A DNA stretch of 51,889 bases from positions 1 through 51,889 of the forward strand of contig JALHMS010000031.1 in assembly GCA_022843925.1 (NCBI GenBank), given 5' to 3'. Shown here piece by piece: positions 24,788 to 37,179 of this stretch (positions are counted from its first letter, which is position 1; each line of letters opens with the position of its first letter). The translations under genes and the position numbers were made by a program. The stretch is from Burkholderiales bacterium. Lineage in GTDB: Bacteria > Pseudomonadota > Gammaproteobacteria > Burkholderiales > Ga0077523. Under the pieces are notes generated by a model. That model did not search any database. It was not told the DNA's origin and was given only the letters and a program-made list of their open reading frames with translations.

Positions 24788-26128
24788 ATGAATGTTGTAG
24801 GAATTGCCCAGCCGGACGTCACCATCACCCTCGATCTCGACGGTGTGATCCGCGACGTCACCGTCTCGAACACCCTGTCGCGGCAGGATGTCTCCGCGTG
24901 GATCGGTCGTCCCTGGACCGAAACGGTCGCCGACACCGGTGACCGCAAGGTCCGACGCATGGTGGAAGACGCGGTGCGCCGTCAGGTGTCCGCGTTCCGG
25001 CAGGTCACCCAACGCTTCCCCAGCGGCCTCGAACTCCTGATGGAGTACACCACGATCCGCCTGGGGGAGCACGGTGGTCTCATCGCCGTGGGCAAGAGCC
25101 TGCAAGCCGTCACCGAACTCCAGTCGCGTCTGCTCTCCGCCCAGCAGGAGATGGAACGGGAGTTCTGGAAGCTCCGCGAACTGGAAACCCGCTACCGGCT
25201 CCTGTTCGACAACTCCAGCGAAGCCGTCGTCCTGCTCCGCGCCGCGAACCTGCGCATCCTCGAGGCGAACCCGGCGGCCGTGCGTGCATTGGGTCTTTCG
25301 CCGGAGCGGCAGCAGGGTATCGCCGGCCGCGATTTCCTGAACGAGGTCGCCGGCCGCGAACGCGATCTCTTCCAGTCGATGCTTCGGAACGTGCGTGACC
25401 ACGGCAAGGCTCCGGGCATGATGGTGCACCTCGGTCGCGACGCCGAACCCTGGCTCATCCGCGCGTCCCTGATGACGGCCGAGACCGGGCTGATGTTCCT
25501 GGTCCAACTGGCTCCCGTGGCCGTGACGCACACGGCTTCCACACCGGAAGCGCCCGCGGTGTCGATCGAGGCGATCCTCGATCAGGGGCCCGAAGGACTC
25601 GCTGTGCTGGACGCCGCGGGCATCGTGATCCAGGCGAACACCGCCTTCCGTCGCTTGATGGGGTTGCGCGACGACGAACTCCCGGAAGGACGGCCGATCA
25701 CGGCATGGCTGCAGTGGACGGGGGAAGCCCCCGATCCGGCTTCGCAGCGACGCTCCGCGATGGCCACCGTGTTGAACCCCGTCGGTGTTGCTTCGGTGGA
25801 GGTGATCCACGTGGGCCCCGGCGATGCCGACAACGGCTTAGCGGTCGTCATCGTGCGCGCCGCGCCGCGGCCCGAAGTCGCATCCACCGACCCGCTGTGC
25901 GAAGGCATGACCCACATCGTCGAGCAGGTGGGCCATCGGCCCCTGACCGAGCTGGTGAGCGAAGGCGCAAGGCGCCTCGAGGTGCACTGCCTGCGCGCCG
26001 CACTCCAGTCGGCCGCGGGCGACCCCGGCAGCGCGGCCGGACGACTCGGGCTGTCCGTCGAGGAATTCCGGGCTCGCCTCGCCCGCCTGGACAACGCCGG
26101 CGACGCCGGCCCCGGCGGCAACACCTGA
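24788..26128 (+). CDS. PpsR-like regulator with degenerate DNA-binding domain
   Basis: 446-residue paralogue of PpsR. It keeps the N-terminal sensor domain (DVTITLDLDGVIRDVTV aligns with DVTLIIDAKGVIRDMAF), the Q-linker (QSRLLSAQQEMEREFWKLRELETRYRLLF) and two PAS domains. It lacks about 20 N-terminal residues. Its C-terminal helix-turn-helix is altered: SRQSLYVKLRRYG in PpsR becomes SVEEFRARLARLD, and the stretch between LTELV and the Cys-containing helix is shortened. Cys401 sits exactly 46 residues from the end, as Cys429 does in PpsR. It starts 11 bases upstream of bphP. In Rhodopseudomonas and Bradyrhizobium a PpsR protein is the partner of the bacteriophytochrome; here the partner may bind PpsR or BphP more than DNA. 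Confidence 0.85.
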   Translation: MNVVGIAQPDVTITLDLDGVIRDVTVSNTLSRQDVSAWIGRPWTETVADTGDRKVRRMVEDAVRRQVSAFRQVTQRFPSGLELLMEYTTIRLGEHGGLIAVGKSLQAVTELQSRLLSAQQEMEREFWKLRELETRYRLLFDNSSEAVVLLRAANLRILEANPAAVRALGLSPERQQGIAGRDFLNEVAGRERDLFQSMLRNVRDHGKAPGMMVHLGRDAEPWLIRASLMTAETGLMFLVQLAPVAVTHTASTPEAPAVSIEAILDQGPEGLAVLDAAGIVIQANTAFRRLMGLRDDELPEGRPITAWLQWTGEAPDPASQRRSAMATVLNPVGVASVEVIHVGPGDADNGLAVVIVRAAPRPEVASTDPLCEGMTHIVEQVGHRPLTELVSEGARRLEVHCLRAALQSAAGDPGSAAGRLGLSVEEFRARLARLDNAGDAGPGGNT

Positions 26129-26139
26129 CCCCGTCGGCC

Positions 26140-28302
26140 GTGCCTTCGAACTCGCACGCCACCCAGCTGCCGGCCTTCGGTCAGGCGGACCTCTCCAACT
26201 GCGAGCGGGAACAGATCCACCTCGCCGGATCCATCCAGCCCCACGGCGCCCTGTTCGTCGTGAGCGAGCCCCAGTACCAGATAGTCCAGACGAGCAACAA
26301 CGCCGCTGCGTTCATCGGCCTGCCGGGCGAAGTGCTCGGGCTGCCGGTGACCGAGGTCCTGGGCGATCTCTGGAAGACGATCGAACCCCATCTGTCGGAG
26401 CCGCTCACGGCGGTGCCCCTCGCGTCGCGGTGCCGCGTCGGGCGCCCCGCGCGCGAGTTCGACAGCCTGATCCATCGGCTGCCCGGCGGCGGCCTCGTCG
26501 TCGAGCTGGAACCCGCAGCGGCGCGGGTCGACCTCTCGCAGGCCATGGAAGAGGCTCTGGACACCATCCTCGCCGCGGCGTCGCTGCAGGCGCTCGCGGA
26601 CCAGACGGCGCGCATCTTCCGGCAGATCACCGGCTACGACCGGGTGATGGTGTATCGATTCGACGATGAAGGACACGGGGAGGTCTTCGCGGAGCAGCGC
26701 GAACCGCACCTCGAGGCCTACCTCGGCAACCGCTATCCCGCGTCCGACATCCCGCAGATCGCACGGCGGCTCTACCTTCGCAACCGTGTCAGGCTCCTCG
26801 TGGATGCGGGCTACGCACCTGTACCGCTGAATCCGACGCTCTGCCCGCTGACCGGGCGCGATCTCGACATGTCCATGTGCCACCTCCGGAGCATGTCGCC
26901 GATCCACGTGCAGTACCTGCAGAACATGGGCGTCGCGGCGACGCTCGTGGTCTCGCTCGTGGTCGGCGGAAAGCTCTGGGGGCTCGTCGCCTGCCACCAC
27001 TATGCCGCGCGCGTCGTGCACTACGAGGTGCGGGCCGTGTGCGAGCTGCTGGCGGAGTCGATCGGCACCCGCATCGCGGCGCTCGAGAGCTTCCTGCAGG
27101 CGCGCGCCGAACTGTCGGTGCGTCGACTCGAACAGCGGATGGTGGAAGCCATCTCGCGCGACGGCGACTGGAAGAGCGCGCTCTTCGATGGTTCGCGCTC
27201 GCTGCTGAAACCCGTATCGGCCACGGGCGCGGCCCTGCTCTTCGAGGGCGAGGTCTACACGGCCGGGGAGGTACCCGGCACGCCGCAGCTTCTCGAGATC
27301 GGCCGATGGCTCGACATGCGCCGCCGCAACGGCGTGATCTCCACCACTTCGCTCGGTCTCGACGAGCCCGACTTCGCACCGATCATCCCGGTGGCGAGCG
27401 GCCTGCTCGCGGCGCCGATCTCGCAATCGCCGGGCGAGTACCTCCTTTGGTTCCGCACCGAGCGCATGCGCACGGTGACCTGGGGCGGTGACCCGTACAA
27501 GGCCGTCGTGATCGGCAACGATCCGTCGCAGCTCTCGCCGCGGCGCTCGTTCGCGCAGTGGCATCAGCTCGTCGAAGGGACATCCGATCCCTGGACGCCG
27601 GCAGACCTCTCGTCGGCGAGGCTCATCGGCGACTCCGTGGCGGATGTCGTGCTGCAGTTCCGTTCGGTGCGGATGCTCATCGCGCAGGATCAGCTCGCCC
27701 AGGTGAGCCGCCGTGTGCAGGTGTCGAACCAGCCGGTGCTCATCGCCGACTCGACGGGACGCATCGTCCTCGCGAACGACGCCTTCGAGCAGTTGCTGCC
27801 CGAGGCCGTGCATCTGCGCTGGATCAAGGAGCTGGCCCCGTTCAGTTCGGAGCCCGCCACCACGCGCCGGGATCTCGAGGAACTCCTGCGCAACCACACC
27901 GCGTGGCGCGGCGAGATCCGCCTCCGCAAGGACGGCGGTGAAGGCACGGCGTTCATGGTGCGTGCCGATCCGGTGTTCGCAGCGGCCGACCGGGTGCTCG
28001 GCTTCGTCCTCCTGCTGAACGACCTGACCGAGCGCAAGGAAGCCGAGGCGGCGCGCAAGCGCTTCCAGGAGAACGTGATCGGACGTCAGCACGTGGCCAG
28101 CCTGCGGCTGCATCCGAAGGCGGGGCGGCAGTACCAGAACCTGCTCTCGTCGGTCGTGGGGAACGCCCAGCTCGCCGCTCTCGAGATCACCGACGGCGTG
28201 GATCCGACGCACATGCCGGCGATGCTCGAAAGCGTGCAGAACTCCGTGCTGCGGACGGAGCAGCTGCTGCAGTTCCTGCTCTGGCACGCCGGCGAGGGCT
28301 GA
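26140..28302 (+). CDS. bphP: Bacteriophytochrome (PAS-GAF-PHY-PAS, no kinase ATPase domain)
   Basis: Red/far-red photoreceptor of 720 residues closely resembling RpBphP1 of Rhodopseudomonas. Cys21 (DLSNCEREQIHLAGSIQPHGAL-type motif) would bind biliverdin. The GAF domain has YRFDDEGHGEVFAE and YPASDIPQIARRLYL, and the PHY tongue carries PRRSF at 467-471. A further PAS domain (about 525-640) and a short helical dimerisation-like end follow. No HATPase domain is present, so output is likely by protein contact, as for BphP1-PpsR2. Start is GTG at 26140 without a clear ribosome site; the frame is open further upstream over the previous gene. Confidence 0.95.
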   Translation: MPSNSHATQLPAFGQADLSNCEREQIHLAGSIQPHGALFVVSEPQYQIVQTSNNAAAFIGLPGEVLGLPVTEVLGDLWKTIEPHLSEPLTAVPLASRCRVGRPAREFDSLIHRLPGGGLVVELEPAAARVDLSQAMEEALDTILAAASLQALADQTARIFRQITGYDRVMVYRFDDEGHGEVFAEQREPHLEAYLGNRYPASDIPQIARRLYLRNRVRLLVDAGYAPVPLNPTLCPLTGRDLDMSMCHLRSMSPIHVQYLQNMGVAATLVVSLVVGGKLWGLVACHHYAARVVHYEVRAVCELLAESIGTRIAALESFLQARAELSVRRLEQRMVEAISRDGDWKSALFDGSRSLLKPVSATGAALLFEGEVYTAGEVPGTPQLLEIGRWLDMRRRNGVISTTSLGLDEPDFAPIIPVASGLLAAPISQSPGEYLLWFRTERMRTVTWGGDPYKAVVIGNDPSQLSPRRSFAQWHQLVEGTSDPWTPADLSSARLIGDSVADVVLQFRSVRMLIAQDQLAQVSRRVQVSNQPVLIADSTGRIVLANDAFEQLLPEAVHLRWIKELAPFSSEPATTRRDLEELLRNHTAWRGEIRLRKDGGEGTAFMVRADPVFAAADRVLGFVLLLNDLTERKEAEAARKRFQENVIGRQHVASLRLHPKAGRQYQNLLSSVVGNAQLAALEITDGVDPTHMPAMLESVQNSVLRTEQLLQFLLWHAGEG

Positions 28303-28350
28303 CGCCTGCCAGACGGGCCCACGCAGGCCGCGAAGCGTCGGAATTCCCGG

Positions 28351-29055
28351 TCAGCCCGCCGCCTGCACCGCCGCCTTCACCGCCTCGAGCACCGCCTCGG
28401 ACACTGCTATGTTGTGCCGGAACGCCTCGGCTGCCTCCTCCACGATCTCGTCGAGGCGCGGCGCGACATCCTGACCGGCGGCCTCGATGGCGGTGAGGTA
28501 GGACGCCGTGCGCTGCTCGATGTCGACGTCGTCACCGAAATCGTAGAACGACAGCGCTTCGGGCCCGAGCCCCGGCGTCTTCGCGAGCAACCGCTTCAAC
28601 ACCTGCCCTCCCGACAGATCACCCAGGTAGCGCACGTACGAGTGGGCGATCAGCGTCCCCGGAAAACGCCGGCCTTGCGTCACGACCTGCACGACATACA
28701 TGCCCGCTTCAGGCAGCAGCGGGAGCGTCTCCTCCCAATCCTCGCCGGCCAGCGATCGCAGGTCGGACGCCAGCGCGTCCCGCCTCTGCAGCTCGTGCAT
28801 CGCGATGCGCCTCACCCCGGGGTCCCCCGCATGGAGCTCGGTCAACGTTTCCATGACCGTGTAGACCGGGTGCAGGTTGCGCAGCAGGAGAGCGTAGCCG
28901 CCCCGGCTCGCGCGGCCATGGAGCAGTTCCCGGAGGATGCCGGACCGCTCCGCTTCCCGATGCAGATCCCGCGTGCGGTCACGCAGACGCGCCACGAGTC
29001 CTTCCGGGCGTGCAGCATGCGTGCCGGGGGTCTCGGCGGGTGCCGTGGGATTCAT
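28351..29055 (-). CDS. bphO: Heme oxygenase (biliverdin-producing, bphO-type)
   Basis: Heme oxygenase opens heme to biliverdin, the chromophore of the neighbouring phytochrome. The 234-residue product has the proximal His32 in LRDRTRDLHREAERSG and the distal-helix motif GDLSGGQ at 145-151, both diagnostic. The ATG at 29055 begins MNPTAPAETPGTHAARPEG. The frame is open far upstream, but only as a shadow of the P450 gene. It converges on bphP with only 48 bases between stops. Such a bphP-bphO neighbourhood is common, though usually the two are co-directional. Confidence 0.94.
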   Translation of the reverse strand: MNPTAPAETPGTHAARPEGLVARLRDRTRDLHREAERSGILRELLHGRASRGGYALLLRNLHPVYTVMETLTELHAGDPGVRRIAMHELQRRDALASDLRSLAGEDWEETLPLLPEAGMYVVQVVTQGRRFPGTLIAHSYVRYLGDLSGGQVLKRLLAKTPGLGPEALSFYDFGDDVDIEQRTASYLTAIEAAGQDVAPRLDEIVEEAAEAFRHNIAVSEAVLEAVKAAVQAAG

Positions 29056-29232
29056 CGTGACAGTGGCCTCGTGGGAAATGGGAATCGATGCGGTGCGCGG
29101 TGCCATCACCCCGCGCGGCAACGCCGATTCTCGCCCATCGCGCCGGTCGGCTCCACCGCTTCGCGGGAGGGGCTGTCGGCACCCGGCCCGCCGGGGCTTT
29201 CGTCGGACGCGGCGGCGGTGCACGATCGCGGC

Positions 29233-30714
29233 ATGCGACCCACCGCCGATACCTCCTTCCCCGCGCCGCCCCGGTCGGCAGGCGCGACGCGACGACTGGC
29301 CGATCTTCCCGGCCCGCCCGGTCGCTGGATCGTCGGCAATCTCCTCGATGTCGACGTGGGCCAGCTGCACCGCATCCTGTACCGCTGGGCCGACCGGTAC
29401 GGCCCGCTGTATCGCATCCGCCTCATGCAGCATCCGATGCTGGTGGTGGCGGATCCCGTGCTGATCCACGACATCCTGCGGCAGCGCCCCGAATCCTTCA
29501 TGCGCCAACGTTCCCTGCGTTCCGCGATGCTCGAGGTCGGCGTGGACGGCGTGTTCAATGCGGAGGGCCGGGACTGGCGCCGCCAGCGCGCGCTGGCCAT
29601 GCACGCGCTCAACACGCGGCACCTGCGGGGATTCTTCCCGCGCCTCGAGGCGGTCACCGGACGACTGCAGCGGCGCTGGCAACGCGCGGCCGACGAAGGC
29701 ACCGTGCTCGACATCCAGCGCGAACTCATGCGGTTCACGGTCGACGTGACGACGGGTCTCGCGTTCGGCCACGACCTCAACACCATCGAGCAGGACGGGG
29801 ACCTCATCCAGACGCACATGGAGAAGCTGTTCCCCGCCCTGCTGCGGCGGACCATGGCCCCGTATCCGTACTGGCGGTGGTTCCGCCTGCCTGCCGATCG
29901 CGCGCTCGATCGGGCGATGGCCGAGGTCCGGCGGCTCGTGACATCGATGATCGAGGACTGCCGGCGACGCGTGGCCGCAGACCCGGTCCGGCGGGCACAT
30001 CCGACGAACTTCATCGAGGCGATGCTGGCTGCGCAGGACGACGAAGCCCGCGGGTTCAGCGACGCCGAGATCTTCGGCAATGCCATCACGATGCTGGTCG
30101 CCGGCGAGGACACCACGGCGAACGCGATCTCGTGGATGCTGCATCTCATGATCGACCGGCCGGAAGTGCAGACGCGGCTGCAAGCCGAGGTCGATGCAGT
30201 GCTCGGCCATGCCGACCGTCCGTTGGACCACGCGGCGGCCGACGGACTCGACTACATCGAGGCGATGGCCCACGAGGCGCTGCGGATTAAGCCGGTGGCG
30301 CCGTTCCTTTCGCTGGAACCGCTCGTCGACGCGCAGATCGGCGACGTCCACGTGCCCGCCGGCACGGGCGTCCTGGCGCTCAACGGCTATCCGGGCACGA
30401 CCGGAGCGCACTTCGCGCGACCGGACGACTTCCGCCCGGAGCGCTGGATGGCCGCCGAGCGCGCCCCCGCGGATGCCCACGAAACGCGGGCGTTCATGCC
30501 CTTCGGTGCGGGGCCCCGGTACTGTCCGGGGCGACATCTCGCCATGCTCGAGATCAAGATGGTGATGGCGATGATCGCGCGGCACTTCGACGTCCGGCGC
30601 GCCCCCGGGACGGCCCCGGCCGAGGAACTGTTCGCGTTCACGCTGATGCCGAAGGACCTGTTCGTGCAGCTCGTCCCGCGCGCGCCGGCCGGCGTCACGG
30701 CAGCGGGCGGCTGA
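29233..30714 (+). CDS. Cytochrome P450
   Basis: 493-residue P450 monooxygenase of unknown substrate. The heme-binding loop FGAGPRYCPGRHLA has the axial Cys431, the I-helix carries AGEDTTAN from residue 290, and the K-helix EALR (ExxR) is near 355. The Pro-rich start LPGPPGRWIVGNLL resembles long-chain-type and CYP102/CYP4-like bacterial P450s. There is no membrane anchor and no fused reductase. It is divergent from bphO (177 bases apart), and its end overlaps the convergent porin-like gene by 20 bases. No ferredoxin or reductase gene is adjacent. Confidence 0.95.
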   Translation: MRPTADTSFPAPPRSAGATRRLADLPGPPGRWIVGNLLDVDVGQLHRILYRWADRYGPLYRIRLMQHPMLVVADPVLIHDILRQRPESFMRQRSLRSAMLEVGVDGVFNAEGRDWRRQRALAMHALNTRHLRGFFPRLEAVTGRLQRRWQRAADEGTVLDIQRELMRFTVDVTTGLAFGHDLNTIEQDGDLIQTHMEKLFPALLRRTMAPYPYWRWFRLPADRALDRAMAEVRRLVTSMIEDCRRRVAADPVRRAHPTNFIEAMLAAQDDEARGFSDAEIFGNAITMLVAGEDTTANAISWMLHLMIDRPEVQTRLQAEVDAVLGHADRPLDHAAADGLDYIEAMAHEALRIKPVAPFLSLEPLVDAQIGDVHVPAGTGVLALNGYPGTTGAHFARPDDFRPERWMAAERAPADAHETRAFMPFGAGPRYCPGRHLAMLEIKMVMAMIARHFDVRRAPGTAPAEELFAFTLMPKDLFVQLVPRAPAGVTAAGG

Positions 30715-31447
30715 TCGACAGCACAGGCCCGAAGCCGCATCGCCGGCCCGTGCCGTAGCAGGCGTCATCGGGGCGATCGGTGCCCGCCAGCGCCGCCTCG
30801 AACTGGAACCCCCGCCACAGCGTCTGCAGGCCGATGCGGGCGTCGATGTGGCGCTCGGAGGTCGCATCGGCGCGGCCGCGCTCGGCGGCCAGGTGCAGCG
30901 CGCCGGCCTGGGCGAAGTACTGGATCTCGTCCGTGAGCGCACCGGCGTAGATCGCCTGGACGTACCACGATCCGGCGGCCTGCTCGTAGTGCCGGTTCGA
31001 GCGGAAGACGCGGGCCGAAAAGCCGCCGCGGGAGACCCCCGCGAAAACCTCGGCATAGCCATAGCCCTGGAGGCGCGCCGGACCGGAGTAGTCGTATCGC
31101 AGCATCCCGACCTCCCAGGCGAACGGGCCGACATCCCGTGCAAACCCGCCGTAGTAGAGGAACTCGACGTTCGTCCCCAGGGCGGACGGCCCGAGGCGCA
31201 CGGTCGTTGCCTGCCCCCCGGCGAAGAGACCCGAGGCGTGATCCCAGGCCACGGAGACCTGGGCCGCCGGCCGCCGGTCGCTGAACGACACGCCGCGATG
31301 CAGGTAGTCGGACACGACCCCCACCGCACCGGTCCACTGCGCATCCGCGCGCGCGGCGATCAGCAGGAGTGCGATGCCGAGGCCCGGAAAGAGGGCCGTC
31401 CGCCGGCCGTCAAGGAGGCGGAGGGCGACGCGCGACGGCAGTGGCAT
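30695..31447 (-). CDS. TorF-family putative outer-membrane protein
   Basis: 250-residue protein with a Sec signal peptide (hydrophobic LFPGLGIALLLIAARADAQ, cleavage about residue 36). Repeating amphipathic beta-strand segments follow (WTGAVGVVSDYLHRGVSFSDRRPAAQVSV), matching the TorF/Gcw_chp family of putative porins. I chose the ATG at 31447, just before the signal peptide; it overlaps the end of the protease gene by 38 bases, so the two are likely co-transcribed. A longer frame to 31573 would bury the signal peptide. Function unknown; an outer-membrane beta-barrel is likely. Confidence 0.75.
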   Translation of the reverse strand: MPLPSRVALRLLDGRRTALFPGLGIALLLIAARADAQWTGAVGVVSDYLHRGVSFSDRRPAAQVSVAWDHASGLFAGGQATTVRLGPSALGTNVEFLYYGGFARDVGPFAWEVGMLRYDYSGPARLQGYGYAEVFAGVSRGGFSARVFRSNRHYEQAAGSWYVQAIYAGALTDEIQYFAQAGALHLAAERGRADATSERHIDARIGLQTLWRGFQFEAALAGTDRPDDACYGTGRRCGFGPVLSISRPLP

Positions 31448-32759
31448 CGGAACGGGAGGCACATCGCGCTCCGGGGTCCACCCGCACCAGCGCCGCGCAC
31501 GGATCGATCCCGGACATGGCCGTGGCGCCGTCGGGACCGGAGGCAGCGAGGGCGGCGGAGAGTCGGACCGCATCGAGCGAAGGCGCGCGCGCCAGCAGCA
31601 GCGCCGCCACCCCGCTCACGTGCGCCGCCGCGAAGGAATCACCGGACACGTACGCCCAGCGCGCGCCGGGCAGGGTGGTGAGCACCTCCTCACCGGGTGC
31701 CTTCAGGAGGCGCTGGCTCGCACCGGGGAAGTGACTGCCCGCGACGGCGAGGACCTGCGGATGGGATGCCGGGAATCCCCCCTCGGGCGCCGCGCGATCG
31801 GCCGCCGCGACCACCACGCCACCGCGGGCGGAAAAGCGGTCGATGAGCGCACCCAACAGACGGTCGGGCGGCCCCGTGAGGCTCAGGTTCACGACCCGCG
31901 CCTCCGCGGTGAAAGCGCGCTGGAAGGCCTTGGCCACGGCGAAGGTGTCGCACGAGGCCTCCTGCGCGTCGGGACTGCGTTGTCGGCACGCCCGCAGCGC
32001 CAGCATCTTCGCGCCGGGTGCCACGCCCACCGTGCCCACGCCGTTGTCGGCCCGGGCGCCGATGATCCCGGCCACGGCGGTGCCATGCATCTCCACGCGA
32101 TTGCCCCCGCCGATGAAATCCTGCGCGGCCGTCAACTGGCCGGCGAGGTCCGGATGCGCCTCGTCGACACCGCTGTCGATGACTGCAATGCGCACGCCGC
32201 GGCCCGTGGTCACGCCGTGCATGTCGGACAGATCGAGCGCGCGGGCAGACGTCTGCAGCGGGTAGTACGGATCGTTGCGGGCAAGCGTGCGGTATTCCGA
32301 TACCTGCTGGGCCCATCCCACCCGGGCGTCGTGGCCGACGGTTTCGACGAACCGCTCGGCGGTCGTCCCCGCGGGCACAGCCATCAGGATGCAGTGCAAT
32401 CCCAGCGCCGGCATCGGCCAGGCCTCCAGGATCGTCCCGCCGTGGTCCGTGACGAGCCCCCTGGCGAGGCCGAGGACGCGCGCACGCCTTGCCGTGTCGA
32501 GATAGCCGCCACCGGCCCCGGGACGGAAGTGCGTCGGCGCGGCGTCGGGCAGCATCACGAGCACGCGCTCGCCATGCATCCCGGCCGACGGTTGACCACT
32601 GTCGACGTCCGCCGCAGGCGGCGTCGCGGCGCACCCCGCCAACCCTGCGAGGATGCCCATGGTCGCCAGCGCGAGCGCGGCCGGCAGACATCGAAGACGC
32701 CTACGATGACATCGGTCGGGTCGCACGGACCGGTCCGTCGGGTTCGCCCTGGTGGTCAT
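31410..32759 (-). CDS. S8 subtilisin-like lipoprotein protease
   Basis: 449-residue subtilase with catalytic Asp195 (VIDSGVDEAHPDL), His225 (MHGTAVAGII) and Ser375 (GDSFAAAHVSG). The N-terminus has a signal sequence and a lipobox LAGC (Cys43), indicating a membrane-anchored periplasmic lipoprotein. Residues about 64-155 look like an I9-type propeptide, followed by EYRTLARNDPYY at the usual pro/mature junction. The oxyanion-hole segment reads VVVAAADRA where subtilases normally have AAGN, so Asn is replaced by Asp. The ATG overlaps the anti-sigma stop as ATGA. Probably activated by self-cleavage and coupled to the sigma system upstream. Confidence 0.92.
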   Translation of the reverse strand: MTTRANPTDRSVRPDRCHRRRLRCLPAALALATMGILAGLAGCAATPPAADVDSGQPSAGMHGERVLVMLPDAAPTHFRPGAGGGYLDTARRARVLGLARGLVTDHGGTILEAWPMPALGLHCILMAVPAGTTAERFVETVGHDARVGWAQQVSEYRTLARNDPYYPLQTSARALDLSDMHGVTTGRGVRIAVIDSGVDEAHPDLAGQLTAAQDFIGGGNRVEMHGTAVAGIIGARADNGVGTVGVAPGAKMLALRACRQRSPDAQEASCDTFAVAKAFQRAFTAEARVVNLSLTGPPDRLLGALIDRFSARGGVVVAAADRAAPEGGFPASHPQVLAVAGSHFPGASQRLLKAPGEEVLTTLPGARWAYVSGDSFAAAHVSGVAALLLARAPSLDAVRLSAALAASGPDGATAMSGIDPCAALVRVDPGARCASRSDATAVARRPPPP

Positions 32760-33406
32760 GGCGACGGCGTCGCGAGATCCACACGCACCACCGCGCTGCT
32801 CTGCCGCAGCTGCTCCGCGACCGCGGATGCCCGGGCGGCGGCGACTTCGATGACGTACAGCCCGTCCCCCGTCGGGCCGTCGACCACCCGTGCATCGGCC
32901 GCCACCAGCACCCGGCGGATCGCGATCTCCGGCTGGGCACTGTCGAAAGCGACGATCAGCCGGCCGCGATCCGTGGATGCCGCGGGGGCGGCCAGGGTGC
33001 GGTACTCGATCTCCGGCACGCTGCGCAATCCGATCGCGCCAAGGGCCGCGAGCGCGCCCACCTGCACCACGACCAGCATCCGCAGCACCCGAGCGTCATC
33101 CCACAGGCGGAAGAGCCCCCGGCGCCGGGGTGGCACCGGCGGAAGCGGGGTCCGGGCATCGGCAGCATCGAGGCGGACGGACAGACGGCCGAGCGCGAGG
33201 TCGCGGCCGGGATCGACATCGTACTCGCGGACGTCGTCGGCGATGGAGCGCAGACGGGCGATGTCGGCACGGCACCGCTCGCACTGCCCGATGTGGCTCT
33301 CGACGAACGCGCGCTCGGCGGCGTCGAGCGTGCCGTTCACATACCACGGCAGGAGGACTTCGCTCCGCGCATGGGCGGCGTTGGCCAATTCGAGGATGTC
33401 GGCCAT
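32756..33406 (-). CDS. Membrane anti-sigma factor (zinc-finger) with periplasmic I9-like domain
   Basis: 216-residue protein. The N-terminus carries a ZAS-type zinc motif (H38-x3-C42-x2-C45, HIGQCERC) that would bind the ECF sigma factor encoded upstream. One transmembrane helix spans about 108-128, so the C-terminal part is periplasmic. After EYRTLA (134-139), residues 148-212 have an alternating strand-helix pattern (GRLIVAF..., LYVIEVAAARASAVAEQL, VVRVDLA) resembling subtilase I9 propeptides. Its stop overlaps the start of the protease gene. The family assignment for the N-terminal half is firm; the I9-like call is inference. Confidence 0.82.
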   Translation of the reverse strand: MADILELANAAHARSEVLLPWYVNGTLDAAERAFVESHIGQCERCRADIARLRSIADDVREYDVDPGRDLALGRLSVRLDAADARTPLPPVPPRRRGLFRLWDDARVLRMLVVVQVGALAALGAIGLRSVPEIEYRTLAAPAASTDRGRLIVAFDSAQPEIAIRRVLVAADARVVDGPTGDGLYVIEVAAARASAVAEQLRQSSAVVRVDLATPSP

Positions 33407-33582
33407 CTAGGCGCCTGCCGGGCTCAGGGCGATTCGGCTGCAACGGCGGGAGAACGGCGCATGCTCCGCCGCATTCTCCGCACGCATACCCGATGTGTTC
33501 GTCGAAACCGTCAAGATCCGTCCTCGCTCTCCCACGGATTCGCGATCGACCACCTGGGCCCGACCGGCTCCTGCCGTCCGGT

Positions 33583-33610
33583 CGTGACGGCAGCCACGGA
33601 TGCCGTCACG
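33583..33610 (-). terminator. Strong hairpin between sigma and anti-sigma genes
   Basis: CGTGACGGCA and TGCCGTCACG form a perfect 10-base-pair stem with an 8-base loop (33593-33600), beginning 45 bases after the sigma gene stop. No T-run follows on either strand. The surrounding 249-base gap holds nothing else I can assign. The hairpin could attenuate read-through or stabilise the sigma mRNA. Confidence 0.5.
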
Positions 33611-33655
33611 GGTCGATACGGCGTCGGGCGCAGACCTTCGACGGGACACACCGCT

Positions 33656-34249
33656 TCAACCCCGCTGTTCGAGCATGAGGCGCAGCTTGCGCCGGGCGTG
33701 GAACATGCGCGTCTTCACCGTGTCGGTCGGGCAGTCCATGATGACCGCGATCTCCGGATAGCCGCAGCCGTGGAAATAGGTCAGTTCGACGACCATGCGC
33801 TGCTCGAAGGGCAGCCGGTCGATCGCGGTTCGCAGCAGCGCTGACGACTGGCGCTGCATCAACCGCGTCTCGGGGCTGTCGAGCTGGTCCGGCGTCTCGT
33901 CGTCGGGGTGGGAGGCCACCGGGCGATCCCCGCGCTGCACGCGCTTCAGGGCCTGGCGATAGGCGATCGCGAAGATCCACGTGGAGACCCGCGAGGCATG
34001 GTTGAACGTGGCGGCGCGCGTCCAGACGGCGAACATGGTGTCGTTCAGGACCTCCTCGATGAGATCGGGCCGGCGCGTGAGGCGGTCCAGGAAGCGTCCG
34101 AGGCGCCGGTAGTACAGCCGGTACAGCACGTCGAACGCGCCGCGGTCCCGGGCGACCACGAGTCGCATGAGGTCGACCTCGCGGCGCTCCGCCTCGGGCA
34201 TCGCGGACGCTGCCGCGGGCGACGGATCGGCATCGAGGACCTGGGACAT
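33656..34249 (-). CDS. ECF-type RNA polymerase sigma factor
   Basis: 197-residue sigma-70 family factor of the extracytoplasmic-function type. It has region 2 (VLYRLYYRRLGRFLDRLTRRPDLIEEVLNDTMFAVW at about 41-76) and region 4 (LPFEQRMVVELTYFHGCGYPEIAVIMDCPTDTVKTRMFHARRKLRLML, about 144-192) with nothing between but a short linker. Met17 or Met28 are alternative starts. The membrane anti-sigma factor follows after 249 bases, unusually far for such a pair. A sigma-70-like promoter precedes it. It should control this group and unknown envelope genes. Confidence 0.92.
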   Translation of the reverse strand: MSQVLDADPSPAAASAMPEAERREVDLMRLVVARDRGAFDVLYRLYYRRLGRFLDRLTRRPDLIEEVLNDTMFAVWTRAATFNHASRVSTWIFAIAYRQALKRVQRGDRPVASHPDDETPDQLDSPETRLMQRQSSALLRTAIDRLPFEQRMVVELTYFHGCGYPEIAVIMDCPTDTVKTRMFHARRKLRLMLEQRG

Positions 34250-34298: not shown

Positions 34299-34328
34299 TT
34301 TATACCGGAGGCACCGGCCGGGGTTCAA
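34299..34328 (-). promoter_or_regulatory. Predicted sigma-70 promoter for the ECF sigma gene
   Basis: On the minus strand TTGAAC (34323-34328) is followed after 18 bases by TATAAA (34299-34304), about 50 bases upstream of the sigma ATG. No ECF-like autoregulatory promoter was recognised. The region is shared with the divergent cytochrome gene, for which TATACT at about 34358 could be a -10. Confidence 0.5.
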
Positions 34329-36319: not shown

Positions 36320-36634
36320 ATGCTGAAGATCTCCCCCGAAGAGCAGAAATGGGTCCACGCCAAGCAGCCGGGCGTGATGCGGGCCGTAATGCGCGACGTC
36401 GAAGGCGGCGGGCGCACCTCGCTCATCCGCGTCGCCAAGGGCGCCACCATCGAGATGCACGGGCACATCGGCATCGAGGAGGTCTACGTGGTATCGGGAT
36501 CGCTACGCGTCGGGGAGTTCAAGCTGGCGGCGGGCGATTACCACTTCACGGGCCCGGGCGAGACGCACGACCTCGAGGCGTACGAGGATTCGGTGTTCTT
36601 CGCGGTGACGGAGAAGGTGATCCCGGGGCGGTGA
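36320..36634 (+). CDS. Small cupin-domain protein
   Basis: 104-residue single-domain cupin. The metal-binding motif 1 is seen as MHGHIGIEEVYVVSGSLRVG (residues about 46-65, H47, H49 and E53/E54) and motif 2 as GDYHFTGPGETHD (about 72-84). Substrate cannot be deduced; such proteins bind metals and act as small-molecule or stress-response factors, for example ChrR-like cupin domains. It stands alone, 67 bases after the CoA hydrolase gene and before the repeat array. Confidence 0.85.
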   Translation: MLKISPEEQKWVHAKQPGVMRAVMRDVEGGGRTSLIRVAKGATIEMHGHIGIEEVYVVSGSLRVGEFKLAAGDYHFTGPGETHDLEAYEDSVFFAVTEKVIPGR

Positions 36635-36689: not shown

Positions 36690-37046
36690 TGTAGGAGCGG
36701 GCCATGCCCGCGAAAGCGGTAGATGCAAGGAAACACTTCACCCGGAACGATTGCTTTCGCGGCCATGGGCCGCTCCTACAAAGGCACGGTCCACTCCGAC
36801 GTCGGCGGCACGCGACGGTTTCTGTAGGAGCGGGCCATGCCCGCGAAAGCGGTAGATGCAAGGAAACGCTTCACCCGGAACGATTGCTTTCGCGGCCATG
36901 GGCCGCTCCTACAAAGGCACGGTCCACTCCGACGTCGGCGGCACGCGACGGTTTCTGTAGGAGCGGGCCATGCCCGCGAAAGCGGTAGATGCAAGGAAAC
37001 GCTTCACCCGGAACGATTGCTTTCGCGGCCACGGGCCGCTCCTACA
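36690..37046. repeat. Three tandem REP-pair elements (133-bp period)
   Basis: Three near-identical 91-base elements start at 36690, 36823 and 36956 and end at 36780, 36913 and 37046, separated by 42 bases that are also repeated. Each has 28-base arms (TGTAGGAGCGG-type head ... CCGCTCCTACA-type tail) that pair with only two mismatches around a 35-base loop. Each arm contains its own GC hairpin (GCGGGC-cat-GCCCGC). This is the BIME-like layout of REP sequences mobilised by REP-associated transposases. No such transposase gene is in the window. The whole 545-base gap 36635-37179 has no gene; a further ACGTGGC/GCCACGT inverted repeat lies at about 37051-37081. Confidence 0.9.
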
Positions 37047-37179
37047 AAAACACGTGGCCTGTTCCCAATGTCGGTGCCACGTCACTGGGGGATATACGAG
37101 GGGCCCTCCCCTTGTTGGTACGACCTGCGGCCCAGCCGCCGCGGGCCACCGGCCCGAGAGGCGGCCCATGCCGAGCCTG

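Follow-up and report, generated by a model that had tools for sequence, protein, structure and literature searches.

Why do a subtilase and the anti-sigma factor encoded just before it carry the same six residues, EYRTLA? The two proteins belong to one operon in a stretch of 51,889 nucleotides from a Burkholderiales bacterium (contig JALHMS010000031.1 of assembly GCA_022843925.1), all of which is here called the window. All genes of the operon lie on the minus strand and encode, in order of transcription, an extracytoplasmic function (ECF) sigma factor of 197 amino acids (33656-34249; PF08281 and PF04542 above cut-off), an anti-sigma factor of 216 amino acids (32756-33406), an S8 subtilase of 449 amino acids (31410-32759), and a protein of the TorF family. 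The first three gene calls, and the ATGA in which the anti-sigma stop and the protease ATG overlap, are as an earlier note on this sequence had them. The sigma and anti-sigma genes are separated by 249 nucleotides, and the ATG of the TorF-like gene lies inside the protease gene, with an overlap of 38 nucleotides. In our view, the subtilase is probably a dedicated site-1 protease that would cut YRTL↓A both in itself and in the anti-sigma factor. Judged from related sequences, a signalling operon whose subtilase appears to recognise its own cut sequence in the anti-sigma factor is found in many proteobacteria.

The earlier note had placed EYRTLA correctly in both proteins: residues 134-139 in the juxtamembrane linker of the anti-sigma factor (32990-33007), and residues 155-160 at the junction between prodomain and mature protease (32280-32297). 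It was also right that the codons differ (GAG TAC CGC ACC CTG GCC in the former and GAA TAC CGC ACG CTT GCC in the latter, three of six being changed). A shared 6-mer is only mildly surprising in the window alone. We did not take the window as proof because 3.3% of 4,000 shuffles of its two proteins also produced some shared 6-mer; the significance of the motif comes from the family.

The ECF sigma factor, the membrane anti-sigma factor with a zf-HC2 domain, and the S8 subtilase, often accompanied by a TorF porin, recur together as a module. Among genome contigs, a scan identified 32 relatives of the anti-sigma factor, with a sigma gene upstream of 31, an S8 gene downstream of 24, and a gene for a C14 caspase-like protease downstream of 6. 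TorF was present in the examined flank of 16 of the 24 S8 loci and of none of the 6 C14 loci (some flanks being short). By name, the carriers include Dyella, Sphingomonas, Caulobacter, Methylotetracoccus, Stella, and Albimonas, as well as metagenome-assembled genomes of Betaproteobacteria, Rhodoferax, Rhodocyclaceae, and Woeseiaceae. The C-terminal domain of the anti-sigma factor was detected, across partly overlapping samples, at order level in 28 of 300 genomes, at phylum level in 26 of 398, and at family level in 7 of 12; the profile of the whole anti-sigma factor was matched in 28 of 369 genomes from the class and in 11 of 296 from a different order. Excluding the window copies and two duplicates, there are 77 loci with the domain, of which 72 have a sigma gene, 56 an S8 gene, and 8 a C14 gene (in flanks of about 1.5 kb for most of the later loci). 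Neither protease was found downstream in 13 of the 77, with flanks of about 1.5 kb in ten and shorter ones in the rest. Among these 13, L077 was later found to have a C14 gene, whereas L062 and L086 come from one and the same stretch of a genome. Further anti-sigma loci, numbered within L089-L129, show neither S8 nor C14 in their short flanks (e.g., L096, L100, and L103).

The first motif test comprised 33 pairs with a subtilase match at E <1e-60, from which L022 and L030 had been dropped as misaligned. Compared with 179 segments of the protease N-terminal part, the anti-sigma motif scored best at the junction (9.19, next 1.72). The main test comprised 48 pairs, i.e., the window and those 47 of the 82 candidate loci whose S8 match lay below 1e-60. 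Four loci were added by hand, their C-terminal domain being too divergent for the domain model (L018, L019, L021, and L027), and several rows were dropped: the window copies L033 and L035, the duplicates L036 and L087, and, among L089-L129, L097, L099, L116, L119, and L124. Seven anti-sigma motifs were moved by one or two residues with a profile blind to the partner; the motif of L027 thus reads YETVMS, which is probably one residue off. The common letters are [EATPQ]-[YF]-[RHET]-[TAV]-L-[SGAT] in the anti-sigma factors and [TVERL]-[FY]-[HRQE]-[TVA]-[LQM]-[AGT] in the proteases. Taken without regard to pairing, the anti-sigma motif is again best at the junction among 360 protease segments (7.29, next 2.78), and the reverse comparison, of the junction motif with 193 anti-sigma segments, peaks at the linker (5.91, next 0.60).

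The motifs also match pair by pair. True pairs score 11.0 vs 7.37 for permuted ones (p <1e-4, n=48), and the excess persists among representatives below 75%, 60%, and 50% identity, taken without the window (p 0.0002, 0.0015, and 0.0056, with 28 representatives at the last threshold). The 14 pairs outside the first test give 8.5 vs 4.7 after permutation (p 0.003-0.004). We then ranked the pair-specific excess of all 75,075 pairs of segments from the two proteins: the motif pair comes first (4.02, against a mean of 0.075 and a standard deviation of 0.50), and it is still first after thinning to 38 pairs (excess 2.86). We rejected a phylogenetic echo as the explanation, since all 75,075 segment pairs share the same tree. 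By unpaired similarity, the motif pair is only 8th of the 75,075, behind Gly/Pro-rich segments, YVNGTL, and an overlapping segment shifted by one residue. Covariation of EYRTLA in orthologous pairs, which the earlier note had named as a check on its proposal, is found in the 47 related loci and was not seen in the 13 divergent pairs described below. Of the outcomes that the note would have counted as refuting, the two that can be read from sequence, a fold unlike I9 and a motif missing from orthologous pairs, do not hold for this subtilase type. On this sequence evidence, what that note saw is a single case of a protease/substrate-like motif whose copies co-evolve throughout the main type of the operon.

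The motif changes with the protease. We compared the 48 S8-linked anti-sigma factors with those of 11 C14-linked loci, four of which are close relatives and five of which were given to a Pfam search that confirmed PF00656. The C14-linked linker reads about F-R-S-V, vs about Y-R-T-L-[SGA] in the S8-linked proteins. Ser stands at motif position 4 in 9 of 11 C14-linked vs none of 48 S8-linked linkers, Leu at position 5 in 1 of 11 vs 39 of 48, Arg at position 3 in 10 of 11 vs 22 of 48, and an aromatic Y or F at position 2 in 7 of 11 vs 47 of 48. With the 8 nonredundant C14 loci, the contrasts in Ser, Leu, and the aromatic residue are still significant, and that in Arg has p 0.05. In the C14-linked L059, the program read TYATVR, where by eye VRNVA would fit better. 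A site F-R↓S-V would fit the changed protease because metacaspases cut after Arg or Lys, according to the available part of one source (PMC8283722). Inspection of the C14 proteins, made by eye only, demonstrated no matching self-cleavage site in their sequences.

The anti-sigma factor is of the membrane type, with a zf-HC2 domain (PF13490, E 2.1e-8) at residues 18-46 (33269-33355) and a helix of membrane length at residues 105-124 of the AlphaFold2 model; with hydrophobicity judged by eye, the predicted membrane helix spans residues about 105-127 (33026-33094). The linker that carries EYRTLA is predicted to be disordered (predicted local distance difference test [pLDDT] <50 at residues 131-142), and it is followed at residues 147-211 (32774-32968) by a confidently modelled b-a-b-b-a-b domain that would be periplasmic. 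Among solved structures, Foldseek matches this domain with the propeptides 2z58_B (target-normalised TM score [TMt] 0.74), 1spb_P, and 3cnq_P (both 0.70); the matches to the Tk-subtilisin and subtilisin BPN' propeptides have root-mean-square deviations of 2.1-2.3 and E of 0.009-0.023. The earlier note had likened the domain to an I9 propeptide. The likeness holds for the fold, which is predicted to be that of a subtilase propeptide; it does not extend to the family model, as the Pfam search of the window copy and its relatives gave no match to PF05922 (Inhibitor_I9) and PF22148 (Fervidolysin_NPro-like) is closer. The latter is matched by 20 of 27 relatives of the domain (best 1.2e-7), not including the window copy itself, and by 7 of 21 protease prodomains (best 8e-4). 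Taken alone, neither the C-terminal domain nor the protease prodomain of the window matches a propeptide model in Pfam, and a sequence search of the PDB with the C-terminal domain gave matches at chance level only. Judged by the family profiles, the C-terminal domain is homologous to the prodomain of the neighbouring protease's family, because the two profiles match with a score of 32.8 (probability 81%), above the controls (at most 15.6 in 100 column shuffles, and 10.3 with a reversed profile). Both share an end strand of the form V..A[EQ]P, whose acid or Gln is kept in 40 of 48 S8-linked vs 4 of 11 C14-linked anti-sigma factors.

The subtilase of the window has its catalytic domain at residues 186-405 (31545-32204; PF00082, E 3e-28), with D195, H225, N291 (oxyanion), and S375 all present, and is probably a lipoprotein (lipobox LAGC, by eye). 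PF00082 is its only Pfam domain, so that it is not of the DegS type (trypsin-like plus PDZ). All 56 subtilases of the first set retain the catalytic Asp and His, and Ser is conserved in each of the 50 in which that residue is aligned; the oxyanion Asn is replaced by Q in L022 and by H in L045 and L063, and is unaligned in L051. L022 (5654-8946) has two tandem subtilase genes after the anti-sigma gene, and it is the first of them that has Gln at the oxyanion position. The prodomain of the window's protease is modelled at residues 60-159 (32283-32582), and among the best structure matches of the model are pro-subtilisin E in unprocessed form (3whi) and fervidolysin (1r6v). The model has a strand at residues 155-158 and then pLDDT <50 at 162-170, as expected for a junction leaving the cleft. 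Subtilisin subsites favour aromatic or hydrophobic residues at P4 and P1, and a small one at P1'. Based on these preferences and on the modelled junction, the motif would read Y(P4)-R-T-L(P1)↓A(P1'), and we predict cuts after L159 of the protease and after L138 of the anti-sigma factor.

Two genomic features bear on what would follow such a cut. The pattern TGAAC-N15-18-G[TC]A[TC] lies upstream of the sigma gene in 20 of the 48 loci, vs a mean of 0.47 and a maximum of 3 in 200 mononucleotide shuffles, and 4 of 48 on the reverse strand. In the window, the probable promoter is TTGAACC-N15-GGTATAAA (34299-34328, minus strand), the only occurrence of the strict pattern in the genome of 5.57 Mb, and the operon is probably autoregulated by its own sigma factor. 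The genome also encodes an M50 homologue (PF02163, E 1.1e-69).

From the gene order, the predicted fold, the motif identity with its covariation in the main type and its difference by protease family, the conserved promoter, and the presence of M50, we infer a cascade that runs from cleavage at an exact bond, through docking and a signal, to the downstream steps. The secreted subtilase would mature by a self-cut after L159 (EYRTL↓A). The same letters in the exposed linker of the anti-sigma factor, about ten residues outside the membrane, would be its substrate, and the prodomain-like domain probably keeps the mature protease in place, or in check, next to the cut site. An envelope signal, perhaps involving the TorF porin, would permit cutting after L138. 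This would leave a stub reaching about ten residues outside the membrane, suitable for the M50 site-2 protease; once the stub had been cut by this RseP-type enzyme and by cytosolic proteases, the freed sigma factor would transcribe its own operon. The earlier note had seen the anti-sigma factor as both substrate and docking inhibitor: the pair-matched motif argues well for the substrate half, and docking of the prodomain-like domain on the protease is plausible, as suggested by the shared V..A[EQ]P strand. For the TorF-like protein, which the note had proposed as sensor or target, the loci show a frequent neighbour that may be sensor, target, or cargo. More generally, we propose, tentatively and at just short of an even chance, a matched-site code: each anti-sigma factor would bear the maturation site of its own protease beside a prodomain-like domain, the pairs would co-evolve, and Y-R-T-L↓small would become F-R↓S-V with a caspase-like protease, making the system a bacterial parallel of the eukaryotic site-1 protease S1P.

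Several observations weigh against this reading. Some concern the statistics: 4 of the 14 later pairs had been seen earlier, and without them p is 0.015 (n=10), or 0.048 (n=9) after further removal of L120 as a near twin of L065; the first set alone is unstable, with p from 0.0002 to 0.15 depending on thinning. Others concern the domain, whose Foldseek matches have weak E (about 0.01-0.02), with ribosomal S6 and ACT-like folds scoring similarly; it is the sequence profiles that separate the propeptide reading from these other ferredoxin-like folds. The prodomain-like domain is moreover kept beside C14 caspases. Because the motif precedes the domain in the anti-sigma factor and follows it in the protease, the geometry of docking is no simple copy. 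A ferredoxin-like fold with strand order 4-1-3-2 has the beginning of strand 1 and the last residues of strand 4 emerging from one edge, and for this reason a motif on either side of the domain could reach the same cleft. A lipobox was found, with a simple pattern, in 17 of 47 relatives, and we rejected the lipoprotein anchor as a family feature on this count. Finally, the main test omitted 35 of the 82 candidate loci, all of them with S8 E >1e-60 and 24 with the gene running off the examined stretch. The 13 divergent pairs that could be aligned show no motif match (mean -2.46, permuted -1.39, p 0.83), with an uncertain alignment of the junction. Because of both the missing match and this uncertainty, we claim the matched-motif rule for the main subtilase type, which includes that of the window.

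Other explanations of the shared motif are conceivable. The anti-sigma factor could be an inhibitor only, its linker and prodomain-like domain acting in trans with the motif lying product-like in the active site, and sigma being controlled otherwise. Propeptide folds do bind subtilases in trans (complexes 1scj, 3cnq, and 1v5i), and the end-strand acid or Gln is kept in most S8-linked and few C14-linked anti-sigma factors, as this would have it; we consider it unlikely in view of a linker that is predicted to be disordered and precedes the domain, unlike a propeptide tail, and of the same domain standing beside C14 proteases. It is rather improbable that the protease serves solely as a regulon output, with a general protease such as DegS cutting the anti-sigma factor. 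The place of the protease gene within an apparently autoregulated operon would agree with this, as would the divergent pairs without a motif match, but neither the pair-specific covariation nor the difference in motif by protease family would be expected.

The motif might also tag both proteins for docking to a third partner, e.g., TorF or a PDZ protein. TorF is indeed near most S8 loci of the contig scan; yet similar motif pairs are also seen in L010, L031, and L032, in which a search over about 5 kb gave no TorF, and the motif differs by protease family; we regard this as quite improbable. Common ancestry, by which the C-terminal half of the anti-sigma factor would derive from a subtilase N-terminus and the shared letters would be a relic, could draw on the profile homology of the two domains. 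Against it stand the position of the motif on opposite sides of the domain, the different codons, and the pair-specific similarity that persists in pairs below 50% identity; we regard it as highly improbable. We thus retain the subtilase as probable site-1 protease of its own anti-sigma factor.

Some loci stand apart from the common layout. The window's genome contains a second, weaker anti-sigma match (L034, G000:C4:131427-131828; E 1.5e-7) adjoined by its own sigma open reading frame (ORF), with no S8 match in the examined flank. L123, L125, L126, and L128 have anti-sigma factors with the same domain and the sigma gene on the opposite strand; their short flanks gave neither an S8 nor a C14 match. 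In L067 and L070, Peptidase_C93 was not counted as a third replacement protease, given an S8 match upstream of sigma; with Peptidase_C93 directly after the anti-sigma gene, two proteases may flank one anti-sigma factor there. In the window, the protein of the TorF/Gcw_chp family (30695-31447, minus strand; 250 amino acids) is a putative outer-membrane porin (PF09694, E 7e-19; TIGR02001, E 6.4e-20). Downstream of the operon (25705-30714), translations viewed by eye include a frame resembling a bacteriophytochrome, another resembling cytochrome P450, and, on the minus strand, a stretch like haem oxygenase. Elsewhere, on the plus strand (36704-37100), three ORF starts 133 bp apart (36704, 36837, and 36970) all open with MPAKAVDARK, a sign of a short tandem repeat (about 133 bp) in the DNA downstream of a small gene (36320-36634).

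A site-1 protease takes the first, and often the signal-receiving, step in anti-sigma cascades. If our reading is true, subtilases, and perhaps caspase-like enzymes, join a short list of such proteases, a sequence rule predicts the cut bond in many genomes, and the operon shows how evolution could preserve a recognition site common to a protease and its signalling substrate. According to the available part of a review, in which the words subtilisin and subtilase are absent (PMC7593790), the site-1 proteases identified so far are DegS/DegP, SipS/SipT, and Prc, and that for FpvR and FoxR is still to be found. A literature search at the level of titles, with subscription papers largely outside it, gave, among the titles listed, none on a subtilase as site-1 protease of an anti-sigma factor or on a propeptide-like anti-sigma domain.

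Parts of the module have known counterparts. ECF54 sigma genes, too, stand beside subtilase or caspase-type (CHAT) protease genes, in a group described as lacking an anti-sigma factor in the accessible portion of PMC8999054; in contrast, the window has a zf-HC2 anti-sigma factor, and it is this protein that carries the site. Its sigma group may carry a number in the published ECF re-classification. Operons of sigma-70 and metacaspase genes in Myxococcus, Ralstonia, and others resemble the C14 loci in having a sigma gene beside a C14 gene, and the word anti-sigma is absent from the text of the source as far as it was available (PMC3501461). The N-prodomain of fervidolysin (PF22148) and the Inhibitor_I9 propeptides are like the C-terminal domain in fold and profile, with the difference that the domain here is part of a membrane anti-sigma factor and is preceded by a cleavage-like motif. 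In the RseA/DegS/RseP (sigma E) and MucA/AlgW systems, a membrane anti-sigma factor is cut first in the periplasm and then by an M50 site-2 protease (PMC7593790), and the same would be expected here; unlike in those systems, the protease is an S8 subtilase from the same operon, whose own maturation site matches the substrate-like site. Eukaryotic S1P/SKI-1 belongs to other organisms and acts on other substrates, in which we know of no prodomain-like domain; it too is a subtilase that performs site-1 cleavage before a site-2 protease acts, and the sites in its prodomain resemble those in its substrates.

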